DNA from: an uncultured bacterium
GTDB lineage: Bacteria > Planctomycetota > UBA8108 > UBA1146
Assembly (NCBI GenBank): GCA_913056395.1
Contig: CAJXMG010000010.1
Span: 1-64,000 of the forward strand
Direction: 5' to 3'
DNA length: 64,000 nt
Positions 1-22,352 of the stretch are shown one piece after another. Each line of letters begins with the position of its first letter. Positions within the stretch are counted from its first letter, which is position 1. The position numbers were made by a program, and so were the translations under genes. A model generated the notes under the pieces. That model saw only the letters and a list, made by a program, of their open reading frames with translations. It did no database searches and had not been told where the DNA came from.

Positions 1-73
1 TGGACCTGAGGGGGCTCGAACCCCTGACCTCCACACTGCCAGTGTGGCGCTCTCCCAGCTGAGCTACAGGCCC
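1..73 (-). tRNA. tRNA-Ala (anticodon GGC)
   Basis: Read on the minus strand this folds as a complete cloverleaf. The acceptor stem pairs GGGCCTG with CAGGTCC, including one G-U pair, and the discriminator base is A. The D-arm contains TAGCTCAGCTGGGAGAGC. The anticodon stem pairs CCACA with TGTGG around the loop CTGGCAG, which gives anticodon GGC (reads GCC, alanine). The T-arm carries the usual GGTTCGAGCC. The mature body ends at the window edge, so an encoded CCA cannot be seen. Confidence 0.95.
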
Positions 74-387
74 ATGATTTGGGTGGGGTGGGGGCTTGCG
101 AGGCCAGTGAAATGGAATCAGTGACACTGAATCCAGCGACACTCACTCTAGCGAACATCCACGCCCAATCCCAAAGCATATCCGTGGCAGGTCTTGCGTC
201 AAGGGAACCGATTGTTCCGGAGGCCGGTTCCACCTACGATTCACCTATGGATTCTGAGGCTGTTGATGGGGTCTGTGGACTCTTCCGGCCCAGGGAGATT
301 GTCGGAGGCCCAGCGAAGTGATTCGGGGCTTCCACATGGATTTCGATCCCTCCCCGGAAATCCTCACATGATTGAATCGAGGCCCCC
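74..387. other. Intergenic region between tRNA-Ala and the LeuRS-like gene; no gene seen
   Basis: I see no convincing coding sequence here. It must hold the minus-strand tRNA promoter and possibly the plus-strand promoter of the next gene, but no strong -35/-10 pair stands out. An imperfect tandem repeat of about 14-15 nt lies at 115-143. Short open frames here on both strands look like chance readings: they have no ribosome-binding site and no recognisable motifs. Confidence 0.5.
115..143. repeat. Imperfect tandem repeat, two 14-15 nt units
   Basis: GAATCAGTGACACT (115-128) is followed directly by GAATCCAGCGACACT (129-143). It lies about 40 nt upstream of the tRNA 5' end in the tRNA's reading direction, so it may sit in its promoter region. 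Only two copies are present and the function is unknown. Confidence 0.4.
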
Positions 388-3054
388 ATGGGCGTGGATC
401 TGAGAGATCTCGAAAAACGCTGGCAGGAGATGTGGCGGGGAAACCCGTTGCCCTCACCGGTGAAAACGGACGATGAGGAGAGAGCCCGGGAATTGGCGGA
501 AGAATCTGCCAATGATCCCGCCGAATCCCAACCTGAATCTTCAACAACCGAACCTGAAGGCATGGAAGAATCGGTGGAAAGTCCGCCAACAGCGCCGGAC
601 TCCGCTGCGGCATCGAAGGTGGATTCCGGCTTTTCCGACGGACTGCATGCAGAAGACGGGGGCGAATCGTCAACGACGGTCGAGTCTGATGAAACGGCTG
701 TAAAGTCTCCTGCTGAGGAGTCGCCGAAGGCCACATCCGAAGGAAAACCTCCCCGTCGCCGCCGTCGTCGCGGACCCCGTACCTTTTTCTCCCTCGACAT
801 GTTTCCTTACCCTTCGCTGGATGGTTTCAGTGTCAGTCAGTTGAGGGGAGTGGCGACCAATGATGTGGTCGCTCGTTACCAACAGTCCCGGGGGAAACGG
901 GTCTTGCGCCCCATAGGCTGGGATGCCTTCCAGGCCTCGGTTGAAGAAGAAGCAAGACAGAAAGAGATCTCACCCCGGCAGGTGGTCGACCAGGGAGTCG
1001 AGTTGATGCGTGAGCAGTTGCGCCGATTTGGCGCCCTTGTTCACTGGGATCATGAAGTCGACACCAGTGATCCCGAAGATTATCGCTGGTCCCAGTGGCT
1101 TTTCCTGCAGTTGCGGGAGAAGGGGCTCGTCCACCAGGACGACGATGGCTGGAAGGTGGCGATCACCGACTACGCAGAGCCGCTGCACTCCGGTCTCAAG
1201 AATCTGAAATGGCCTCCTCGAACCAAGGCTCTTCAACGGAATTGGATCGGTCGCCGTGAGGGAACCAAACTGGTTCTCAAAGCCAGCTCAGAGCTTTACG
1301 ACGGCTGGGAAGAACTGGAGGTCTTCGCTCGCAAGATTGAAGCCTTGCCGGAAGCAAGCTTTGTTGTGTTGTGTCCGGAGCACCCGCTTCTGGAAAAGAT
1401 CGTCGACCCGATTCAAGAGGACGACGTTCGTGAATTGCAGGAGCGTACCGCTCAATTGGATGAACGTGAGCGAATGGCGAATCGGGCTGAATCGGATGGA
1501 GTCGCGACGGGGGCATATGCCCTCAATCCTGCAACCTTGGAGCCGATTCCGATCTGGGTCAGCAGTTACGTCATGCCTGACATCCGCTTTGGGGCCATTC
1601 TGGGGATGCCCGAGGAGAATGAGGCTCACAAGGATTTTGCCAATCGTCATGGAATCCCGCTGACGGGGGCAGGAGGCAATTCAGGCCGCCGCCGTCGCCG
1701 TCCACCCAGACGTCGTCAGGGGGGGGAGAACTCCGATCAAAAGAATGGGTTGCAAGGATCCCTCGAATCCAGAGGGCTGACCGAGCCCCACATCGACTAC
1801 AAGTTGCACGACTGGGTATTTGATCGTCAGCGTTTCTGGGGAGTACCGATCCCCATGATCGAATGTGAAGATTGCGGCACCGTTCCCGTGGCGGAGTCGG
1901 ATCTGCCCGTCAAGTTGCCAGAGGTGGATCGGCTCGAGAAGGTTGATGCGGGGGAGAACCCGCTGGCCGCATTTGAAGAATGGCGAGCAGTAGATTGCCC
2001 CTCCTGTGGGAAGGGCGCTCTTCGGAGTGTCGATACGATGCCTGACTGGATCGGATCCTGCTGGGGGCATCTGCGTTGCCTGGATCCACGATTCTCTGAA
2101 GCCATTGCCAGTCGTGAGCATCTTCAGCGCTGGACCCCGGCGAATCTTTGTGTCGGAGGGATCGAGCATGCGGAGCTGCATCTGATGTATGTGCGTTTCA
2201 TCAGTCACTTTCTTGCCGACCTGGGGGTGACCCCGAGGCAGGAGCCCTACCGAAGGCTCTTCAATCAGGGACGGATTCGATCGCAGGAAACTGTCAATGA
2301 CAATGAGGCAGAGGTCAGTCGGCGTGGCCCGAGGGTCATCGCCAGTGAATACCTTGATCATTACGGGGCCGATGCCCTGAGGTTGCACCTGCTCTTCATG
2401 GGGCCTCCCCAGGATCATGTCGAATGGAGTGACGAAGGGCTGAAGGGTTGCGCCCGTTTCCTCCAACGAACCCACGAAGCGATCACCCAGCGGATTGGCA
2501 AGGGCAAGTTTGTCAGTCGAAATGTACTGGTCGCCAAACATCGTTTGATTCGCAGGGTGACCCGTGCGATCCGAACCTATAGACTGAACAAGGCGGTCAG
2601 CGCCTTCATGGAATTCATCAAGTTGCTCCGCGGCGATGAGTTCTCCATGGAAGAGGTGGACAAGCAGACGTTGCGCACCTTCACGATTCTCTTGGCACCC
2701 TTTGCCCCTCATATGGCCCATGAACTTTGGGAGCAGTTGGGGGAGGCGGGACCACTGACTTCCGAATCGTGGCCGGAGCACAGCGATGAGTTGTTGCAAC
2801 CGACTGAAGTGGAGCTGGCCGTTTTCGTCAATGACTCTCTTGTTGACCGAATGACTGTGGAGCTTGAAGCGAGCAAAAACCAGGTCATCGATCAGGCTCT
2901 GGAGTTGAACAAGGTTCAGGAGCGGACCGGTGGGAAATCTGCGGATCGGGTGATTCACGTTCCCGACCGTCTCCTCAAGCTGGTTTATTCGCAGGGGAAT
3001 GAATCTGCTGAAGAGTCTCCACCGGAAGAGCCGTTTTTCGATCCAAATAGTTAA
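388..3054 (+). CDS. Leucyl-tRNA synthetase-like protein lacking catalytic motifs
   Basis: The 888-residue protein aligns along its whole length with bacterial class Ia LeuRS. It has the N-terminal 'LEKRWQEMW' helix, 'LDMFPYPS', 'IGWDAF', the CP1 editing domain (about 300-425), 'DWVFDRQRFWGVPIP', a Cys4 zinc site (CEDC, CPSC), 'GGIEHAELHLMY', the anticodon helices ('PFAPHMAHELW') and the C-terminal domain. The functional signatures are gone. HVGH is replaced by SVSQ (148-151) and KMSKS by AEVSR (641-645). The editing-site TTRPDT and HDERD motifs are also replaced, and the segment normally reading 'NWCP...TVLANEQV' is missing. An acidic low-complexity insert with a poly-Arg end (about 25-130) and a second Arg-rich insert (around 432-445) were gained. 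It is therefore probably not an aminoacylating enzyme, and a true LeuRS should exist elsewhere. The first ATG in the frame was taken as the start; the ribosome-binding site is weak. Confidence 0.85.
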   Translation: MGVDLRDLEKRWQEMWRGNPLPSPVKTDDEERARELAEESANDPAESQPESSTTEPEGMEESVESPPTAPDSAAASKVDSGFSDGLHAEDGGESSTTVESDETAVKSPAEESPKATSEGKPPRRRRRRGPRTFFSLDMFPYPSLDGFSVSQLRGVATNDVVARYQQSRGKRVLRPIGWDAFQASVEEEARQKEISPRQVVDQGVELMREQLRRFGALVHWDHEVDTSDPEDYRWSQWLFLQLREKGLVHQDDDGWKVAITDYAEPLHSGLKNLKWPPRTKALQRNWIGRREGTKLVLKASSELYDGWEELEVFARKIEALPEASFVVLCPEHPLLEKIVDPIQEDDVRELQERTAQLDERERMANRAESDGVATGAYALNPATLEPIPIWVSSYVMPDIRFGAILGMPEENEAHKDFANRHGIPLTGAGGNSGRRRRRPPRRRQGGENSDQKNGLQGSLESRGLTEPHIDYKLHDWVFDRQRFWGVPIPMIECEDCGTVPVAESDLPVKLPEVDRLEKVDAGENPLAAFEEWRAVDCPSCGKGALRSVDTMPDWIGSCWGHLRCLDPRFSEAIASREHLQRWTPANLCVGGIEHAELHLMYVRFISHFLADLGVTPRQEPYRRLFNQGRIRSQETVNDNEAEVSRRGPRVIASEYLDHYGADALRLHLLFMGPPQDHVEWSDEGLKGCARFLQRTHEAITQRIGKGKFVSRNVLVAKHRLIRRVTRAIRTYRLNKAVSAFMEFIKLLRGDEFSMEEVDKQTLRTFTILLAPFAPHMAHELWEQLGEAGPLTSESWPEHSDELLQPTEVELAVFVNDSLVDRMTVELEASKNQVIDQALELNKVQERTGGKSADRVIHVPDRLLKLVYSQGNESAEESPPEEPFFDPNS

Positions 3055-3222: not shown

Positions 3223-4449
3223 GTGACCAATCAGAACAGCTCCAAAACGTTACCACTGGTCGTATCAGCAGTGTTTTTAACCCTCGGATTGAACGGGTTG
3301 TGGCTTGATGTCCAATCTTCCGAGAAAACGCAGCAGGCATTGGCCGATACCTTTCCAATTGACGCCGAATGGGAGTTGAAGGGGATTCCTCAAGAGGGAC
3401 CCACTGTTGCCGATTCGATTCCTACCCTTGTTGAAGACACAGTTGAAGACACAAAGGGATCGGTCACCGGAAACGTTTCCCTGCCCTTCGATGAAAGAGC
3501 GCAGGAGCGCAGCAGATTCCTCCTCGATCTGGAAAATCGCAGTGCAACGCTGACGCGGAAACTGCGCAGTGAATGGCAGGCCTCCCAACAGGACTTCGAA
3601 AGTCGTTTGCAGGGCTGGGTTGAAAACCGGCAGATCCCTGAGTTGAAAAGGGCTCTCAGCATGCCCCAGCCTCTGACTTCCGCAGAGGGCGTCATTGTTC
3701 CTGGTCGATCCAAAACAAAAATGGAACGCATGATCTATCCGATTGTCCAGATGAAGGGCAATGGGACTGTGGGAAGTGGCGTCGTCGTCGCAAATGAACC
3801 GGGGCCTGCGCAAAACTGGTACATCTGGGTCGTCACTGCCTACCATGTGGTCGAGGAAGTCCGCGATTTCAGCAACTATGACGAGACCGTAGTCGACGTT
3901 CATTTCTTTGATGCCGAGTTGGGCAGGGTCTCTGAGGATTCCTGTAGCGGGCTTGAAGTAGTGGCGTACCCGGAAGCGGATCTGTCCCTGCTGAGGATTG
4001 AGCGTCAGCAGCCGTGGCCCTATCTGGCAGATGTGGCCCCGGAAGAAGTCTGCGAACAGCTTTCTGTCTTTGATCCGGTTTATGCGGTCGGGTGCCCATT
4101 GGGCAACCAGCCGATCCCGACTCGCGGTGAAATCTCCTCCCAGTACAAAAAGGTGGGCGACGAAGTGTATTGGATGGTCAGCGCCCCGACCTTTTTCGGC
4201 AACTCCGGCGGCGGAATCTTCCTGTCGGAAAATGGCCAATTAGTCGGAATCAGCAGCATGATCTACACCTATGGCAAGCGTTCACCGATGGTCGTGCCCC
4301 ATATGGGCCTCTTCGTTCCCCTGGCTCAGGTTCGATCCTGGCTGCGGAGAGAAGGTTTTGTACATCTTTTGGGAACTTCCGAGGGAATGCCTGTGACCGC
4401 CTCAGGGACCGATATGTCCAATTCTGCGGGCGAATCCGGGTCATTTTGA
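3223..4449 (+). CDS. Exported trypsin-like serine protease (S1/HtrA type, no PDZ)
   Basis: A 408-residue protein with a GTG start preceded by a GGGGAA-like ribosome-binding site. Residues 9-28 form a hydrophobic signal or anchor segment. Residues 30-165 are a linker with predicted helical, charged character. The protease domain follows with a complete triad: His208 in 'VVTAYHVVEE', Asp253 in 'EADLSLLRIE' and Ser328 in 'GNSGGGIF'. The 'TAxHV' and 'GNSGGG' patterns match the DegP/HtrA-like S1 group, but the C-terminus ends soon after the domain and no PDZ repeat is visible. It likely acts in the periplasm or at the membrane on misfolded or specific proteins; the substrate is unknown. Confidence 0.85.
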   Translation: MTNQNSSKTLPLVVSAVFLTLGLNGLWLDVQSSEKTQQALADTFPIDAEWELKGIPQEGPTVADSIPTLVEDTVEDTKGSVTGNVSLPFDERAQERSRFLLDLENRSATLTRKLRSEWQASQQDFESRLQGWVENRQIPELKRALSMPQPLTSAEGVIVPGRSKTKMERMIYPIVQMKGNGTVGSGVVVANEPGPAQNWYIWVVTAYHVVEEVRDFSNYDETVVDVHFFDAELGRVSEDSCSGLEVVAYPEADLSLLRIERQQPWPYLADVAPEEVCEQLSVFDPVYAVGCPLGNQPIPTRGEISSQYKKVGDEVYWMVSAPTFFGNSGGGIFLSENGQLVGISSMIYTYGKRSPMVVPHMGLFVPLAQVRSWLRREGFVHLLGTSEGMPVTASGTDMSNSAGESGSF

Positions 4450-4625
4450 CCCGCAGGGACGATCCTTGTATCCTTGAGAACTTCAAGATTCCGAATGGGG
4501 TCTCCGGCAGGGGACTAGTGAATCAGAACGCTTCTTTGCGGGACGCCGATCGCCCCGAAAGAGGAGTTGCAAAAAGCTCTTTCTCCATTGATTTCAAATG
4601 GAATGAAACCGGAAGGAACTCAGCG

Positions 4626-5777
4626 ATGAACGCTGGATCGATTACCAAATGGCTTGCTGTAGCCGCCTTGTCAGCCCTTTTCATGCTGATCTTCAACACA
4701 TCTATTGCTGCCCAGGACACACCTGCTCAGGATCCCCCTGCTCCTGCCAAAGAAGCCAAGGAGGCCCCTGCAGCTGACGACGCCGCTGCCGGCGATGTGG
4801 ACGACATTCTGGGCCTTCCTACCAGTGAACCTGAGGCAGTGGCGGTGATCGACCGTTACCTGGAGGCAGTTGGCGGCAAAGAGCGCCTGAAGAGTATTCA
4901 GGATCGGGTCGAGCGCTTCCGCAACAAGAAGATTGAACCGACCAACGAGACCATCATGAAGATGTCCCGCTTTCTCAAGCGCAATGACGGCGCCTTGATG
5001 ATTCGTGAGGAGTGGCAGCTTCCCGGTCTCGGTTTGACCAAGAATAATGAACCCCTCAACTTTGTGCAGGTCTACGACGGCGAGAAAGCATTTGTCAAAG
5101 CGATGGGGGCGGTTTCCCCATTGGCGGGCAAGACCCTGATCGTCTTCGTCTGGGACAAGCACATCGACGACTTCTTCTGCACCTTTGCGGACAATGGTTA
5201 CATCGCCAAGCTGGCCGGCACTGATACTGTGCAGGGCAAGAGCTGCAAAATCGTCGAGTTGAACTCTTTTGCAGGAAACCAGAAAATGCTGTTTGCCTTC
5301 AATGACGAAGACGGCCTGTTGTTGCGCAAGACCTGGCAGGAGGGTCAGCCACCTGCAGTCATCACCAAAGAGGTCTTCTACGAGGATTACACCCGTATCC
5401 GTTTCAGCGATGACCGTAACCAGTGGATCCAGACCCCCATCGCCAAAAAGATTTTCGAGGATGGTGAGCTGAGCCTTGAGGTGAACTTCGATGAGATCAC
5501 CCTCAACGGCGGCGTCTCCTCCAGCATCTTTGGTCGCCCGGATGGTCGGTCCTTTGAAGAGGTTCGCCGTGAGCGTGAGGCTGCCCGTGCCAAAGAGGCC
5601 GAGGGTGGAGCTGAAGGCGAAGCCAAGGATGGTGAGAAGAAACCGGTCTGGGAGAAGCCGAAGCCGAAACCCAAGCCGGTTTGGGAGAAGCCCAAGCCGA
5701 AACCTGCTCCAAAGCCGGAGAAGAAACCTGTTCCAGCACCGGCTCCCGCTGAGGGATCCAAGGAGGGTGGCCGCTAG
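4626..5777 (+). CDS. Exported LolA/LppX-like protein with Pro/Lys-rich tail
   Basis: The start at 4626 follows an AAGGAA ribosome-binding site and is followed by a signal peptide ending near 'SIAAQD'. The open frame extends further upstream but without a sensible start. The mature protein begins with an Ala/Pro-rich linker, then a domain of about 230 residues opening with 'IDRYLEAVGGKERLKSI'. That opening and the series of predicted beta-strands resemble planctomycete 'outer membrane lipoprotein-sorting' (LolA/LppX-fold) proteins. The last 60 residues are a low-complexity tail with a repeated PVWEKPKPKP unit, which could span or bind the cell wall. No lipobox cysteine is seen. The fold call is inference. 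A strong terminator follows 20 nt after the stop. Confidence 0.65.
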   Translation: MNAGSITKWLAVAALSALFMLIFNTSIAAQDTPAQDPPAPAKEAKEAPAADDAAAGDVDDILGLPTSEPEAVAVIDRYLEAVGGKERLKSIQDRVERFRNKKIEPTNETIMKMSRFLKRNDGALMIREEWQLPGLGLTKNNEPLNFVQVYDGEKAFVKAMGAVSPLAGKTLIVFVWDKHIDDFFCTFADNGYIAKLAGTDTVQGKSCKIVELNSFAGNQKMLFAFNDEDGLLLRKTWQEGQPPAVITKEVFYEDYTRIRFSDDRNQWIQTPIAKKIFEDGELSLEVNFDEITLNGGVSSSIFGRPDGRSFEEVRREREAARAKEAEGGAEGEAKDGEKKPVWEKPKPKPKPVWEKPKPKPAPKPEKKPVPAPAPAEGSKEGGR

Positions 5778-8704: not shown

Positions 8705-9622
8705 ATGTTGCAGAAGTCAGATGCATCGTTGGGAGGCTCGGGGCTCCGGCTGTGGAAGCGTTCAGCTGACGGGTGGCCAATTGGTTTTGAAGATCTCGGT
8801 GCAACCCAGCCGCAACAATTGTGGAAAGCCTGTGCAAACGGCAAGGGTGAGGAGGAATGGAGCGACAGGCGTTGCATCGCCGTTGTGGGATCTCGCAAGG
8901 CGTCAGTTTGGGGGAAAGCCTGCGCCTGGGAGATCGGTGAGAGTTTGTCCCACTCGGGAATCTGTGTCATCAGCGGATTGGCTCGGGGGATTGACGCCGC
9001 AGCTCTCAGAGGAGCCTTGCGTGGGCCGGTTCCGCCCATCGCCATCCTCGGGAACGGACTGCCTCAGATCTATCCGCCAGAAAATCGCGGGCTTGCAGAA
9101 GAGATCGTCTCTGCAGGAGGGCTTCTGGTTTCAGAATATCCGCCGGGAACTCCACCCAGGGGGTATCACTTCCCTCAGCGTAATCGCCTGATCAGTGCAT
9201 GGTCTGAAGCGGTAGTGGTGGTAGAGGCGACCCGCCGATCCGGTTCTCTGGGAACTGCTCACCGGGCTCAGGAGATGGGACGCACCGTACTGACCTTTCC
9301 AGGCAGTGTTGCGGAGGGCGGTCATGCCGGATGCCACTCGCTGATTCGAGATGGAGCCCTCCTCATGGAGTCGGTCGCAGAAGTGCAGGAATGGGTGTTG
9401 ACCGGGAGGGACTCCGGTCATTTCCAGGCACAAGAGAGGCGGCTGAGAAAGTTGTGGAAGGCTTGTGGCTGGGATCAGTCTGACTCTTCGCTCCCTGAGG
9501 CGTCGAGACTTGAAGAAATGCAGCGGCAGACCGGTTGGTCTGCCGCATTTCTGCTTCAGGTCTGGTGGCGTTGGCAGGAACACCACGGGAAAGACGGAAC
9601 ACTGGATCAGGGGCAGGTGTAA
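8705..9622 (+). CDS. dprA: DprA/Smf, DNA-processing protein
   Basis: DprA binds incoming single-stranded DNA and loads RecA during natural transformation. The Rossmann-like domain is clear: 'IAVVGSRKAS', 'VISGLARGIDAAA', 'AILGNGLPQIYPPEN', 'GGLLVSEYPPG', 'FPQRNRLISAWSEAVVVVEA', 'SGSLGTAHRAQEMGR' and 'GCHSLIRDGA'. I chose ATG 8705 because GGAG lies 4 nt upstream and the extra residues from the first in-frame start (8480) match nothing. With this start the protein is 305 residues and lacks the usual N-terminal SAM-like domain; the C-terminal part may be a reduced winged helix. It ends 16 nt inside the convergent cytochrome gene. Confidence 0.9.
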   Translation: MLQKSDASLGGSGLRLWKRSADGWPIGFEDLGATQPQQLWKACANGKGEEEWSDRRCIAVVGSRKASVWGKACAWEIGESLSHSGICVISGLARGIDAAALRGALRGPVPPIAILGNGLPQIYPPENRGLAEEIVSAGGLLVSEYPPGTPPRGYHFPQRNRLISAWSEAVVVVEATRRSGSLGTAHRAQEMGRTVLTFPGSVAEGGHAGCHSLIRDGALLMESVAEVQEWVLTGRDSGHFQAQERRLRKLWKACGWDQSDSSLPEASRLEEMQRQTGWSAAFLLQVWWRWQEHHGKDGTLDQGQV

Positions 9623-12072
9623 CCGGGGCAATCGAGGGCATCGATGGTGGGATCCGGTCCGCAGTCATTCGGATCCGGCAACGTCTGGTTGCCAAAGAGG
9701 AATGAAAGAATCTGGATGGCATCCGCAATGTCGATCAGTCCATCGTCATTCGCATCGAGTGCATCGTCGCAGTCGATGGGAGTTGCGTTGGCGAAGAGAA
9801 CTCCCAGCAGGGAGATGGGGTCGCCGATATCCCGGGTGCCATCGAGATTGGCGTCACCCCTTATGAAGAGCTCTGCGCTGACGACAATCTCTGTTGCCCC
9901 TTCAGTTTCTGGTACCAAAGAATCCCCGGCGACAGTGGCGATCACATTCTGTACCACCGGTTGCCCCAGTGTTTCGACGAAATCGAGATAGGGGCTTTGC
10001 TGCGGTGCAGAACCCGAATACTCGATGGTGGCGATGGGCGTGGCATTTTCAAAAGTCAGGTTTTGCTGCAGGGCGAAATCAAAGAGGCAGGCGATGGTGA
10101 TTCCATCGCCGAAGATGGCAGTCTCGAAAAAATCGGGACCGGTGTTGTTGTCGATGGTAGCCAGCTCGTCGCTGATCTGGATGGATGTCGCCTGAAGGAA
10201 AGAAGAGGGATGTCCCACGGCCATTGAAAAACCGCCGCATGGAATCGGGTTGCCGCTGGTCTGGACGATCTCCGGGGTCGCGGAGAATCCGTTTTGACCG
10301 TCGCTGTTCAGTACCGGAATGCGGTAGGTGAAGGGTGAAACCGTGGGCGGAATCACATCGATAATGGTGGTCGAGTTTTCCATCAGGGTGCCAAAGTCGG
10401 GGCCCTCGATATCGGCGAGAGGTTGACCGATGCCGTCCAGTTGCCACCCTTTGATCGCAACCAGGTCCCTTGGAGCCCTGCGGTAAATCAGGCGAGCTTC
10501 CACCTGAATGGGGCTGACTGTGCCGGTCAGATCAAAGCGGATTTGGGTGAGATCGGTGGCAAGAGGAGCGATCCTGTTGTCACTGACAATCGCTTCTGCA
10601 TCGGTGAAGATGACGCCTTCGGTTCCTTCCGCATTACGATTGATTTTGGCGAAAAGTTTTCCCGGTAGTCCGGCGAAAAACCCCTGTGCAGGATCGCCGG
10701 TGCCGCCGAGGGGGTGAATCGTGTCTCCGGAGTTTTGTGTCAGAACGGTTCCTTGAGCATCGGTTGCCTCGATCTTGAGGATCATGTTTCTCAGGGTGAC
10801 TCCTGAAGGAACGGCATGGCCTGTTTGATCATTGAGAATCTCGGCGTCGACGGCCAATTCATCTCCATCCTGAATCGCCCCCAACGTCAATGTGACCGCA
10901 TTTTCGAGGAAGAGAGGCGTCGTTCCCTGAATGTCGTGGCCGTGAACTGTAGAGGGGTCACGAAGCAAAGGCGGGAAGAGGGCCGCACAGGCATCGACAG
11001 GATCTATGGAGAAGGGGGACATGTGGCAGTCGACGCAAGTTTGGAAGAGGGGGTCGTTCGGGTCACCGTAGGGTGAATTTTTCCACTCGGTGTAGGTTTC
11101 CTGTGCCGGAATGCTCGAGGGTTCGTTGAAGTTGTTATCGTGGTCCGGGTCATTGCTGTATTGGTGACAGACCGCACATGCCTCTGCAGCCAACTGAGGC
11201 TGAAAACTTCCACGCATCTGGTTTTGAACGACGAAATCCACATCCCCCAAGAGGCCGTACATCACCTGATCAACCAGCCCACTGGAGTCTGGGCGTTGTA
11301 CGGTGACGGCTCCCGGAATAAAGCCGGTAGCATTCAAATTACTCTCATCGACATCCGCAATCTTGTGACACGTTTCACAGGATACACCCCGTTCCTGAGC
11401 CTCAGTCACTGGACCTGAGAGGGGGGCGAGCGGTGAGAATGGACTGGCAATCCAGCCCTCAGGCTGGTGGCAGGAAGCACAGCTTCCATCCGGAGCGACA
11501 CCGGCATGCACCGAGTCTGTCAGGTAAACATATCCATTGCTGCCCCCGGCGGTGCCTGTTCCATCGAAGAGATCGTAGACCCAGGTGTTGAGCCCGGTAT
11601 GGGACATCCTTGAGTCAGCCCACTGTTCATATTGAGTCGGATGACAGACGGCACACTGGAAAGGGGTCACAAAATTATAGTTGGGGTCATCTGCAGGATT
11701 GACCGGATCAAGGGAGATCACGGTGCCGGTCTGGGGAGTGTCGACGATGACGGATTGGTTGAAGTACCCCTTCTTTGCCCCGACGATCTTGAGAGCCATT
11801 CCGTTGACGGACGGCAATGAGAAGCTTCCATCCACTGCGGTTTCAGTACGGATGTCGGTCGCTTGGAGGGTGACTCTGGCGCCGAAGAGGGGAAGGCCGG
11901 TATTGCTGTCGATGACGGTGCCGGAAACCTGAGCTTCCAACGTGCCATTTGCCAGAATCAGCACCCAGAAAAGTGCCAATCCGATTCGATTCCAGAAGCT
12001 GACCTTGAAAGAGGCCAGTTTTCTAAGTGTTTTAAGAGTCGAAACTTGTGAAGTGAATGGGGGATGGATCAC
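9607..12072 (-). CDS. Exported pentaheme cytochrome c with dockerin-type C-terminus
   Basis: An 821-residue exported protein. After a signal segment (about 28-47) comes a carboxypeptidase-regulatory-like beta domain (about 48-125, 'VSGTVIDSNTGLPLFGARV'). Next is a cytochrome region with five CxxCH heme sites at about 140, 198, 232, 299 and 346, resembling cytochrome c554 / multiheme 'CxxCH...CHQ' proteins. A long beta-rich part follows. The C-terminus is a dockerin-like pair of Ca-binding repeats ('RGDANLDGTRDIGDPI' and 'DANDDGLIDIADAI'). It probably moves electrons outside the cytoplasm while tethered to another structure. The GTG at 12072 has no clear ribosome-binding site, so the start may be further inside. 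No redox partner genes adjoin it. Confidence 0.85.
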   Translation of the reverse strand: MIHPPFTSQVSTLKTLRKLASFKVSFWNRIGLALFWVLILANGTLEAQVSGTVIDSNTGLPLFGARVTLQATDIRTETAVDGSFSLPSVNGMALKIVGAKKGYFNQSVIVDTPQTGTVISLDPVNPADDPNYNFVTPFQCAVCHPTQYEQWADSRMSHTGLNTWVYDLFDGTGTAGGSNGYVYLTDSVHAGVAPDGSCASCHQPEGWIASPFSPLAPLSGPVTEAQERGVSCETCHKIADVDESNLNATGFIPGAVTVQRPDSSGLVDQVMYGLLGDVDFVVQNQMRGSFQPQLAAEACAVCHQYSNDPDHDNNFNEPSSIPAQETYTEWKNSPYGDPNDPLFQTCVDCHMSPFSIDPVDACAALFPPLLRDPSTVHGHDIQGTTPLFLENAVTLTLGAIQDGDELAVDAEILNDQTGHAVPSGVTLRNMILKIEATDAQGTVLTQNSGDTIHPLGGTGDPAQGFFAGLPGKLFAKINRNAEGTEGVIFTDAEAIVSDNRIAPLATDLTQIRFDLTGTVSPIQVEARLIYRRAPRDLVAIKGWQLDGIGQPLADIEGPDFGTLMENSTTIIDVIPPTVSPFTYRIPVLNSDGQNGFSATPEIVQTSGNPIPCGGFSMAVGHPSSFLQATSIQISDELATIDNNTGPDFFETAIFGDGITIACLFDFALQQNLTFENATPIATIEYSGSAPQQSPYLDFVETLGQPVVQNVIATVAGDSLVPETEGATEIVVSAELFIRGDANLDGTRDIGDPISLLGVLFANATPIDCDDALDANDDGLIDIADAIQILSFLFGNQTLPDPNDCGPDPTIDALDCPGYTCP

Positions 12073-19252: not shown

Positions 19253-20256
19253 GCCAAGACGGGTCCTTTTCGGATCTGGATGCCATTGAGAAAGAAGCCC
19301 TGGCTGCCGTCGAGGCTGCCGGGGATGCAGAAGCCCTCGACCTGGTCCGCATTCAGGTTCTGGGAAAAAAGGGCTCCCTCAAACAGATACTTCGCAACCT
19401 GGGAGGCTTGACCCCCGAGGAGCGTCCGCTCTTCGGGGCTCGTGCGAATGTGGTCAAGGAAAAGGTCCAAGCTGCTCTCGATGAAGCGAAGTCGAGACTT
19501 GGCTCTCCCGCCAAGCAGGGGGCTGCCAAGTCTTCGTCTGCGGAGGATCTCACCCTTCCCGGTCTGATGCCCGAAAGGGGCAGTCGTCACCCGGTGAGAT
19601 TAGTCATGGCCAGAATGAGCCGCATCTTTGCCAGTCTCGGCTTTGAAGTGGCGGATGGCCCTGAGGTGGAAGACGAGTGGCACAACTTTACGGGGTTGAA
19701 TATTCCTGCGGACCACATCGCTCGTGATCCCTCTGAAAACTTCTTTTTGACGGATGACCTGTTGATGAGAAGCCAGACCTCAACTGTTCAGGTTCGGGTC
19801 ATGGAAAATTCCCAGCCACCGTTACGTATCATTTCTCCGGGCAAGGTTTTCCGTCCGGATGAGGTGGACGCCACTCACCATTACATGTTTCACCAGCTGG
19901 AGGGGCTTGTCGTCGATGAAGGGATGACCTTTGGTCACCTGAAAACGACCCTTTTGACCTTCTTCCAGCAACTCCTGCAGGACGAAAACATGAAGTTGCG
20001 CCTGCGTCCTTCTTTCTTCCCGTTCACAGAGCCCAGTGCTGAAGTGGATCTTTGGTGGCGGGGGAAATGGATGGAGATGGGCGGTTGCGGAATGGTGGAC
20101 CCGAATGTGTTGGAGGCGGTCAATATCGATCCCGAGAAGTACACCGGATTTGCATTCGGATTGGGAGTCGAACGGGTGACGATGGCTTCCTACAATATTC
20201 CGGACATTCGCTACTTCACTGAAAATGACGTCAGGTTTCTCAGGCAGTTCTCCTGA
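19249..20256 (+). CDS. pheS: Phenylalanyl-tRNA synthetase alpha subunit
   Basis: The catalytic subunit of the alpha2-beta2 class II enzyme that charges tRNA-Phe. It has 335 residues: an N-terminal coiled-coil arm that contacts tRNA ('LVRIQVLGKKGSLKQILRNL'), motif 1 around 'HPVRLVMARMSRIF', 'NIPADHIARD', motif 2 region 'KVFRPDEVDATHHYMFHQLEG', 'LRPSFFPFTEPSAEVD' and motif 3 'FAFGLGVERVTMASYNIPDIR'. Length and motifs are ordinary. It overlaps rplT by 4 nt and precedes pheT by 35 nt. Confidence 0.97.
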   Translation: MSQDGSFSDLDAIEKEALAAVEAAGDAEALDLVRIQVLGKKGSLKQILRNLGGLTPEERPLFGARANVVKEKVQAALDEAKSRLGSPAKQGAAKSSSAEDLTLPGLMPERGSRHPVRLVMARMSRIFASLGFEVADGPEVEDEWHNFTGLNIPADHIARDPSENFFLTDDLLMRSQTSTVQVRVMENSQPPLRIISPGKVFRPDEVDATHHYMFHQLEGLVVDEGMTFGHLKTTLLTFFQQLLQDENMKLRLRPSFFPFTEPSAEVDLWWRGKWMEMGGCGMVDPNVLEAVNIDPEKYTGFAFGLGVERVTMASYNIPDIRYFTENDVRFLRQFS

Positions 20257-20291
20257 CGGGATGACTGTCCATTGTTCACAAGGGGACTGAG

Positions 20292-22352
20292 ATGAAGGTA
20301 TCTGTCGACTGGCTCCGCGATCACGTGGATTTCGATCTGAAGATTGAGGAACTGTCCCACCTGCTGACGATGTGTGGCCTCAACTGTGAGGGCATTGAGG
20401 AGCATGGGGATGACCATGTTCTTGAGTTGGAGGTCACCTCCAACCGTCCTGATCATCTGGGACACAGGGGAGTCGCCAGAGAACTTTCCTGCCTTCTTAA
20501 GGTTCCGCTCAAGCCCCTGAACCTGGACTTTGAAACTGTAGAAGCCAACACCTCCGGACTCGCTCTCGATGAAATCGCCAGTATTGTTGTCGACGACGAA
20601 GAGCGTTGCGGCCGCTATACCGCTCGTGTCGCAGAAGGATTGAAAATCTCGGAAAGTCCGGATTGGATTCGTCGTCGACTCGAGGCGATCGGACTGCGTC
20701 CGATCAATCTGGTGGTCGATCTGACCAACTACGTCCTGATGGATTTGGGACAGCCTCTGCACGCCTTCGACCTGGACCGCCTGGAAGGTGGTGAGGTGAT
20801 CGTCCGCAGAGCCCAAAGGATGGAGAATTTCTCCGCCATCGATGGTTCAGAACATGAATTGGACAGTGAAGATCTGGTGATTGCAGATCAGTCTGGTGCC
20901 GCAGCCCTTGCCGGAATCATGGGAGGTACCCGAACAGAGGTTCACGAGGGGACTCAGCGAATCCTTCTCGAATCCGCCTGGTTTGAGCCGGTGCCGGTCC
21001 GTTCTTCCTCACGTCGCTTGATCCTTGCTTCTGACTCCTCCTACCGCTTTGAACGCAGGTTGGATGTGGAAGCCTGCGAGACCGCTTCCAGGCGTTTCAT
21101 GCACCTCCTGGCCAAGGAGTCGGAGTGTTCGATTCTCTCCGGATGCCTGGAGGTTGTCCGGGATGGACTCCTCGATCAGGCTGAACCCATCGCCATCCGT
21201 CCGCAGCGGGCTTCGAGTCTTCTCGGTGATGTCATTCCCGAAGGGGAGATCTCTTCGATTCTTTCCGCACTGGGATTCACCACCGAAGGGGACGACGATT
21301 CGGGCCCCTGGACTCCGCCAACATGGCGAGTGGATTGCTCCCGTGAAGCGGACCTGATCGAGGAGATCGGCCGAATCCGTGGGCTGGATCAGATGGATGA
21401 TCGGCGCATGGAAGTGCGGGCGGTGCCGGAGAACGCCCGGTCAGACAAGACCGAGCGGGTTCACGAGTATCTCGTCGGTGCCAGTTACCACGAGGCGATG
21501 ACGATCTCATTTGGTGTGGCCGAAGGGGACTTTCAGGCCATCGAGAATTGGTGGAATCTGGGAGAGCACTGGGTTGTTCGGAATCCCATCCGTGCCAATG
21601 AAGGGTCCCTCAGGAAAAGCCTGATTCCCGGATTGCTCACCAGCGTCCGTGGAAACCGGACTCATGGAGTGGACGAAGTTCGTCTCTTCGAGGTCGCCAA
21701 CGTGTTTCATCGCCGGGACGGGGTCGACAGACCTGTGGAGAAGAATCACGTCGCCTGGGTTCTTTCCCGCGCACAGGAAGAGAAGAATCTCCAGAGTTAT
21801 CGAGAGGTGCGAGGGGTCGCCGACGGCATTCTCGACCTGTTGAGAGTGGCCGAGTCCGGCCCGCTGACACCTTCGTGGAGCCCGGTGGGTGATGGAGCCG
21901 GGTTCGTACCGGGAACCACCGCTGCCCTCAGCTTTTCAGGAGAGCAGATCGGTCTTGTCGGCAGAGTCGATCTCGACGACCTCGGCGGGGAAACCTGGTA
22001 TGGAGAATTGGATCTGGGATATCTGCTGGATCAATCCATCGAGGATGTGAGATTCAGTGAGTTCTCCAGGTACCCGGTGATCACCCGGGATTTGAACTTT
22101 GTTGTTTCAGACGAAGTTCTCTGGCGTGATCTTTCTTCTGAGATCGACGCCGCCTCTCTGGAGCATTTGGAGTCGCGACGCTTTATCGATATGTACCGGG
22201 GGAAACAGGTCGGGCAGGGGCGGAAAAGTATGACCTTCTCGCTGACTTTCCGGGCCGCAGACCGAACGCTGACCCACGAGGAGATTGATCAATCGGTCGA
22301 AAGACTGGTCGGTCGGTTGGGTGAGAAGCTTCAGGCAGAACTGCGAAGCTGA
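20292..22352 (+). CDS. pheT: Phenylalanyl-tRNA synthetase beta subunit, short form lacking the EMAP/OB domain
   Basis: The beta subunit, with the editing (B3/B4) domain and anticodon-binding FDX-ACB fold. At 686 residues it is about 110 shorter than the E. coli protein. The N-terminal 'MKVSVDWLRDHV' runs through 'MCGLNCEGIEE' directly into 'LELEVTSNRPDHLGHRGVAREL', so the tRNA-binding EMAP/OB insertion that normally lies between them is absent. The B5 domain, catalytic-like core ('DLIEEIGRIRGLDQM') and C-terminal FDX-ACB ('FSRYPVITRDLNFVV', 'SLTFRAADRTLTHEEID') are all present. A GGGG-type ribosome-binding site precedes the ATG. Confidence 0.96.
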   Translation: MKVSVDWLRDHVDFDLKIEELSHLLTMCGLNCEGIEEHGDDHVLELEVTSNRPDHLGHRGVARELSCLLKVPLKPLNLDFETVEANTSGLALDEIASIVVDDEERCGRYTARVAEGLKISESPDWIRRRLEAIGLRPINLVVDLTNYVLMDLGQPLHAFDLDRLEGGEVIVRRAQRMENFSAIDGSEHELDSEDLVIADQSGAAALAGIMGGTRTEVHEGTQRILLESAWFEPVPVRSSSRRLILASDSSYRFERRLDVEACETASRRFMHLLAKESECSILSGCLEVVRDGLLDQAEPIAIRPQRASSLLGDVIPEGEISSILSALGFTTEGDDDSGPWTPPTWRVDCSREADLIEEIGRIRGLDQMDDRRMEVRAVPENARSDKTERVHEYLVGASYHEAMTISFGVAEGDFQAIENWWNLGEHWVVRNPIRANEGSLRKSLIPGLLTSVRGNRTHGVDEVRLFEVANVFHRRDGVDRPVEKNHVAWVLSRAQEEKNLQSYREVRGVADGILDLLRVAESGPLTPSWSPVGDGAGFVPGTTAALSFSGEQIGLVGRVDLDDLGGETWYGELDLGYLLDQSIEDVRFSEFSRYPVITRDLNFVVSDEVLWRDLSSEIDAASLEHLESRRFIDMYRGKQVGQGRKSMTFSLTFRAADRTLTHEEIDQSVERLVGRLGEKLQAELRS

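Follow-up and report, generated by a model that had tools for sequence, protein, structure and literature searches.

A gene near the start of the 64,000-nucleotide stretch of planctomycete DNA analysed here (the window) encodes a protein with the complete layout of a bacterial leucyl-tRNA synthetase (LeuRS) in which both catalytic signatures and the editing site have been lost. The same genome carries a canonical leuS, and the anticodon-binding domain of the paralogue is constrained, remodelled and positively charged; together with the loss of the catalytic site, these features led us to read the protein as an RNA-binding pseudo-synthetase. From comparisons among sequences we infer, with slightly better than even confidence, that it is a non-charging binder of tRNA or of some other structured RNA. 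An orthologue was present in all 29 genomes examined from its class, which consists of mostly uncultured Planctomycetota. Coordinates of the gene, its altered motifs and its neighbours are collected in Table 1.

Table 1. Features of the LeuRS-like locus, with positions in the window.
Feature	Position	Strand	Basis
tRNA-Ala(GGC), cut by contig edge, head-to-head with paralogue	1..74	-	Rfam (C10:1-73); alignment; same neighbour elsewhere
Promoter-like element GTCAAGGGAACCGATTGT with TTGTTC-N17-TACGAT, ahead of gene	198..240	+	conserved in G000, G003, G005, G006, G009, G013
LeuRS-like pseudo-synthetase gene, 888 aa	388..3054	+	ORF; TIGR00396 569 bits; AF2 pLDDT 82; best PDB match 2bte
N-terminal acidic extension (residues 23-130), predicted disordered, ends PPRRRRRRGPR	454..777	+	least constrained part
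Former HxGH, now SVSQ (residues 148-151)	829..840	+	alignment to canonical LeuRS
Former editing Thr-rich motif TTRPDT, now ARKIEA (residues 314-319)	1327..1344	+	alignment to canonical LeuRS
Former editing HDxRD, now ENEAH (residues 410-414)	1615..1629	+	alignment to canonical LeuRS
Arg-rich linker RRRRRPPRRR after editing domain	1687..1716	+	alignment, charge
GGIEHA, part of retained leucine pocket	2155..2172	+	alignment
Former KMSKS, now AEVSR (residues 641-645)	2308..2322	+	alignment to canonical LeuRS
Stem-contact/anticodon-binding domain (residues 653-800), conserved core of the family	2344..2787	+	identity, dN/dS, charge
Family-only signature RxxxG[KR]FVSRxxLVxKHxLI (residues 702-721)	2491..2550	+	alignment, model
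C-terminal domain (residues 801-868)	2788..2991	+	alignment, identity, AF2 model
Trypsin_2 serine protease gene, directly downstream	3223..4449	+	Pfam PF13365; synteny
Conserved gene, third cluster member	4620..5777 (start approximate)	+	synteny

The open frame is unbroken, and its product matched the Pfam models for the LeuRS editing domain, the class I catalytic domain and the anticodon-binding domain. It scored 569 bits against the NCBIfam model leuS_bact (TIGR00396; cut-off 548), compared with 78 bits against leuS_arch, whereas copies from class-mates scored 294 and 331, under the same cut-off. Because the window paralogue exceeds this cut-off, automatic annotation would name it leucine--tRNA ligase, and pipelines may count a duplicated leuS and confuse marker-gene work. 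AF2 models of the window protein and of the distant G020 copy (pLDDT 82 and 75) both have the full LeuRS layout. The nearest structures to the window model were LeuRS:tRNA complexes (Foldseek), with 2bte, Thermus LeuRS bound to tRNA-Leu, as the best match at a TM-score of 0.73. The initial annotation had described a full-length LeuRS architecture in an intact frame and had proposed structure prediction as a check; the Pfam domains, the 888-residue frame and the retained LeuRS fold bear that description out.

Alignment to canonical LeuRS gave the same changes that had been read from the window at the outset, namely HVGH to SVSQ, KMSKS to AEVSR, replacement of the editing Thr-rich motif and of HDERD (by ARKIEA and ENEAH, respectively) and absence of the NWCP segment. 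The zinc cysteines (CxxC...CxxC), GGIEHA and the anticodon-binding domain, also listed there as kept, were retained in the alignment, as was the C-terminal domain. Across the order, the HxGH position reads SVSQ, SVNQ or SANQ, with no H in aligned class-mates, and KMSKS is missing from every aligned paralogue. At the editing site, position 319 (Thr of TTRPDT) is A, V, S, I or R in the order and T in one class-mate, and position 414 (second Asp of HDxRD) is H, L or Q. The zinc-ribbon module 'NWCP...ANEEV' is missing from the window paralogue and from genera g1, g3 and g4 and is kept in the deeper orthologues G016, G012 and G007, so its loss came later. An assembly or sequencing error was ruled out, since every genome of the order with a locus spanning the site shows the same losses; the other aligned class genomes carry equivalent losses.

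The genera lacking the zinc module of the paralogue are also the group with a tRNA-Leu of anticodon AAG (13 of 13 genomes in g1, g3 and g4; G000:C1:181633-181717, L170 and L178, in the window genome; the comparison covered loci L170, L177-L191 and L195). The A34 of such a tRNA would need TadA editing to inosine. A tRNA-Leu of anticodon GAG occurs in G010, G012 and G016, and neither the AAG nor the GAG form was found in G007, which lies in between and has kept the module. The anticodon change and the module loss amount to one event on one branch, and their co-occurrence may be mere coincidence. tRNA-Leu(IAG) is known in Lactobacillales (PMC13249217).

The initial annotation had suggested searching for a second leuS with intact signatures, and one is present in the window genome (G000; 2.77 Mb, 95% complete). 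This canonical gene (G000:C37, approximately 19747-22062, - strand) has an 807-residue frame with HVGH and KMSKR, and its product is 35% identical to the paralogue. Canonical leuS was found alongside the paralogue in 24 of the 29 class genomes, including all 23 that are at least 82% complete and one at 80%. Among the matches listed, only the paralogue was seen in G016, G024, G026, G027 and G028 (55-80% complete), the candidates in G024 and G026 having been scored in part. Incompleteness may account for these five genomes, yet five exceeds expectation. As a separate observation, the canonical LeuRS of family f3 (L106 and L107, from G017 and G019) falls in a different LeuRS clade in the tree, together with G047, G055 and G056, which suggests replacement by transfer; this family has both a foreign-clade canonical LeuRS and the most degenerate pseudo-LeuRS.

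These distributions bear on whether the paralogue could remain a charging enzyme for tRNA-Leu, with weak or conditional LeuRS activity. In Pyrococcus LeuRS, Ala substitutions of HVGH and/or KMSKS cripple activity rather than abolish it, the AVGA/AMSAS mutants keeping a residual level (PMC10450160), and the paralogue passes the NCBIfam equivalog cut-off, keeps its leucine pocket in the order and is the only copy seen in the five incomplete genomes. We nevertheless consider continued charging very improbable: both signatures and the editing site were lost together and clade-wide, class-mates have lost the leucine pocket as well, and canonical leuS is present in all 23 of the more complete class genomes and in the one at 80%. 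Given the residual activity of the Pyrococcus mutants, zero charging by the paralogue, like lack of activity in general and any regulatory output, is something that we infer.

The paralogue is present in all 17 genomes of the order, which span two families; whole-protein identity is 46-97%. A single-sequence search with an E threshold of 1e-110 returned nothing in the other 12 class genomes. Each of these holds a second, far more diverged LeuRS-like gene of about 770-1290 amino acids where complete, which lacks HxGH and KMSKS and, as a rule, gets a higher score from the paralogue than from canonical LeuRS. Confinement of the family to the order was dropped as a reading, since these diverged copies lie at the same place. 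A profile of the C-terminal third gave 349-475 bits in 27 class genomes and a maximum of 215 bits, the level of canonical LeuRS, among 363 other sampled genomes of the phylum; no orthologue of the paralogue was found among these roughly 360 genomes outside the class. The f3 copies in G017 and G019 are the most degenerate (105 and 120 bits) and were recognised through synteny.

The paralogues of the order form one clade in the tree. A branch with support of 100/100 separates them and seven class-mate copies from 32 canonical LeuRS, and branching inside the paralogue clade broadly mirrors that of the canonical LeuRS tree, the pattern that vertical descent would give. The class-wide family has a single origin. 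A tree with relatives had been among the checks first proposed, and it places motif losses common to the class in a single clade. A recent duplication of the genome's own leuS was ruled out because the paralogue clade lies outside all sampled canonical LeuRS, the own copy included, and because the paralogue keeps zinc cysteines that the own canonical LeuRS (L039:4745-7165, - strand; DEEG...VPGSG) lacks.

Selection was estimated as dN/dS by the Nei-Gojobori method in nine close pairs; the paralogue gave 0.05-0.19 and canonical LeuRS 0.04-0.17. Broken down by domain, values were 0-0.07 in the anticodon domain and 0-0.06 in the first Rossmann half, and were highest in the N-terminal extension (0.25-0.9). 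A decaying pseudogene might be suggested by the many catalytic residues that are gone and by a protein that usually evolves faster than canonical LeuRS (within the window's species group, close pairs have dN of 0.012-0.034 vs 0.007-0.011). The chance of this is negligible, as frames are open in all orthologues of the order, dN/dS indicates strong purifying selection, the gene is retained class-wide and new invariant residues have appeared. Decay is refuted for the order by the selection data, in addition to the class-wide retention. The dN/dS comparison called for in the initial annotation therefore supports its view of selection on a new role rather than decay, as do the class-wide motif losses and the new signature.

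Conservation is concentrated in the anticodon-binding domain. When the order is compared with its class-mates, this domain is 41% identical, as against 26-32% for all other domains. Residues that are invariant in canonical LeuRS are kept by the order at 18/20 sites in the anticodon/stem-contact domain, 20/35 in the first catalytic half and 27/34 in the second; the corresponding counts in class-mates are 14/20, 6/35 and 10/34. These data point to a common core function located in the tRNA-binding half.

The same domain has been remodelled. Several sites of the protein are near-invariant throughout the family and rare in canonical LeuRS, the densest cluster being residues 702-721 of this domain, where signature sites are 92-100% conserved in class-wide paralogues and found in 0-13% of canonical LeuRS per site, except for a common H and I. 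In the model, the signature comprises the end of helix 682-702, a loop and the start of helix 711-729. Net charge over residues 648-760 is +2 to +11 in the paralogues vs -1 to -9 in eight canonical LeuRS, that is, the anticodon domain has shifted from net negative to net positive. The segment with the Arg-rich linker has a net charge of +6 to +12 across the window's family, is weaker in G016 and is absent in canonical LeuRS. Net charge of the C-terminal domain is -5 to +2 in the order.

Acidic sequence is found elsewhere in the protein. The N-terminal extension (net charge -14; pLDDT below 50 over residues 47-125) occurs in most of the order where the assembly reaches the start, and class-mates with complete frames, f3 excepted, have an acidic insertion of about 170-260 amino acids in the catalytic domain (net -28 to -80 in L096, L098, L100, L104, L110, L111 and L112). 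A similar acidic module has thus been placed twice, at different sites, and both versions were predicted to be disordered in the two members modelled with AF2.

Nine of ten leucine-pocket residues, a list that we take from established LeuRS structures in Thermus numbering, persist in the order, and class-mates of other orders have lost most of them. Every member of the order has M138, F139, P140, Y141, D179, S557, E593, H594 and H598, equivalent to Thermus M40, F41, P42, Y43, D80, S504, E540, H541 and H545. By analogy with HisZ or the LARS1 leucine sensor, the paralogue might be a leucine-sensing regulator whose pocket binds free leucine without ATP and signals to a partner. The persistence of these nine residues while the ATP motifs were lost speaks for this reading, which is a minor possibility. 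However, class-mates have lost most of the pocket, so sensing is not the common function of the family; the equivalent of Thermus Y507 (position 560) is replaced in g1, g3 and g4, and no gene of leucine metabolism was recognised in the conserved cluster. Any leucine sensing may have been added in the order alone.

The gene order around the paralogue is shared class-wide: tRNA-Ala head-to-head upstream, the LeuRS-like gene, the Trypsin_2 protease gene, a conserved gene with no Pfam or NCBIfam match, RlmN on the opposite strand and, beyond it, DprA. The tRNA-Ala was present in all 19 scanned genomes whose contig clearly reaches its place (GGC, once CGC); it was not found in about 0.4 kb of upstream sequence in G017, and some other contigs end too early. 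The protease gene and the gene after it adjoin the paralogue in class genomes with enough contig, and this core stays while genes farther upstream vary between clades. Many members have, upstream of tRNA-Ala, a conserved NfeD1b/short NfeD/FloA flotillin-like cluster followed by tRNA-Leu(CAA) (e.g., L081:994-4205, - strand). Beside dprA, the window encodes a large, multihaem cytochrome-like protein with several CxxCH haem-binding motifs (9607-12072, - strand).

The upstream box of the promoter-like element is unusually conserved in the order. No second exact copy of GTCAAGGGAACCGATTGT was found in the genome, and a regulon motif was rejected on the basis of this one exact copy and of 3-mismatch matches about as frequent as in the control. 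A defence system was likewise rejected, with no PADLOC match for the LeuRS-like protein and only weak matches for the protease, and so was an older protease cluster, since protease homologues outside the class lack the conserved core neighbours.

The constant adjacency of the Trypsin_2 protease gene and the next gene, in class genomes with enough contig, would suit a scaffold for protein-protein contacts that belongs with the neighbouring membrane protease cluster and uses the synthetase fold as no more than an inert platform. We regard such a scaffold as quite unlikely. The protease is probably extracytoplasmic, with a hydrophobic segment at its N-terminus, and no such segment is seen in the sequence of the LeuRS-like protein; the conserved order also spans RlmN and DprA, so that the adjacency may be plain synteny, and protease homologues outside the class lack a neighbour of this kind. 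More speculative, and improbable in our estimation, is a tRNA-based sensor in which the anticodon domain would bind tRNA, the pocket would read leucine (in the order) and the signal would pass by protein contact, perhaps to the membrane protease. If true, bacteria would have a counterpart to the synthetase-derived sensors of eukaryotes, one that became fixed at the root of the class.

RNA binding seems to us the most economical reading. The paralogue would be an old duplicate of bacterial LeuRS that gave up leucine activation and proofreading and now serves as an RNA-binding protein. Its RNA would most likely be tRNA, gripped by the remodelled, positive anticodon domain with its signature and by the C-terminal domain, and in the window's family the Arg-rich linker would aid this binding. 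Instead of charging tRNA, the paralogue would hold, sequester, present or sense it, and the leucine pocket retained in the order could make binding leucine-responsive. The initial annotation had proposed a LeuRS-derived, non-charging, tRNA-binding or regulatory protein from one genome; the canonical leuS, the class-wide motif losses, the strong purifying selection and the conserved tRNA-binding half with its new signature and reversed charge fit that proposal, now widened to 29 genomes.

Several observations count against RNA binding. A helical bundle of positive charge is able to bind proteins or membranes as well; next to the paralogue lie a serine protease gene and, upstream in many members, genes for NfeD/FloA membrane proteins, the only tRNA-linked neighbours being tRNA-Ala and RlmN. 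The order keeps a leucine pocket that plain RNA binding does not need, and in five genomes, 55-80% complete, the paralogue appeared alone.

Compared with canonical bacterial LeuRS (TIGR00396), the paralogue shares the full domain layout and the fold, as judged by the match to 2bte, but lacks the catalytic and editing signatures, and its anticodon domain has a reversed charge and a signature confined to the family. No report of a bacterial or Planctomycetes LeuRS paralogue family was found in the literature searched, which covers few subscription journals. SLIMP, the SerRS-like insect mitochondrial protein, is a class II protein of animal mitochondria. It resembles our proposal in being derived from a synthetase and having a regulatory role (PMC9437257). 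HisZ is likewise a synthetase paralogue used for metabolism or regulation instead of charging (PMC9437257), but has a class II fold and a known biosynthetic enzyme, ATP phosphoribosyltransferase, as its partner; judged by gene context, no partner of that type was identified in the conserved cluster (tRNA-Ala, Trypsin_2, the conserved gene, RlmN, DprA).

The nearest known cases belong to different lineages. Two duplications of LeuRS are given in a 2022 review, LeuRS-I of Sulfolobaceae and LeuRS2 of Halobacteria; both come from archaea, and neither has an assigned role (PMC9437257). LeuRS2 is, like the present protein, a second LeuRS copy without an assigned role; it retains affinity for tRNA-Leu and, as described in the review, low aminoacylation, whereas the present family has lost both signatures. 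LeuRS-I has a disrupted CP1 editing site and binds tRNA-Leu without aminoacylation, and a tRNA-dependent role outside translation has been proposed for it (PMC9437257). The likeness lies in a second LeuRS with a disrupted editing site beside a canonical copy, here in 24 of 29 class genomes. By the review's description, however, LeuRS-I is of archaeal type, still forms leucyl-adenylate and has a divergent acidic C-terminal domain (PMC9437257); the present family is of bacterial LeuRS type, has lost HxGH and KMSKS and carries its acidic sequence as an N-terminal extension or a mid-protein insertion. Because the ATP motifs are lost, leucyl-adenylate formation by the paralogue appears unlikely. 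Synthetase paralogues with other roles are already known, and the LeuRS cases in the review come from archaea and have kept a reaction with leucine. A bacterial LeuRS without catalytic or editing sites, kept class-wide and with a new signature in its tRNA-binding domain, offers a clean natural test of why a synthetase fold persists after charging.
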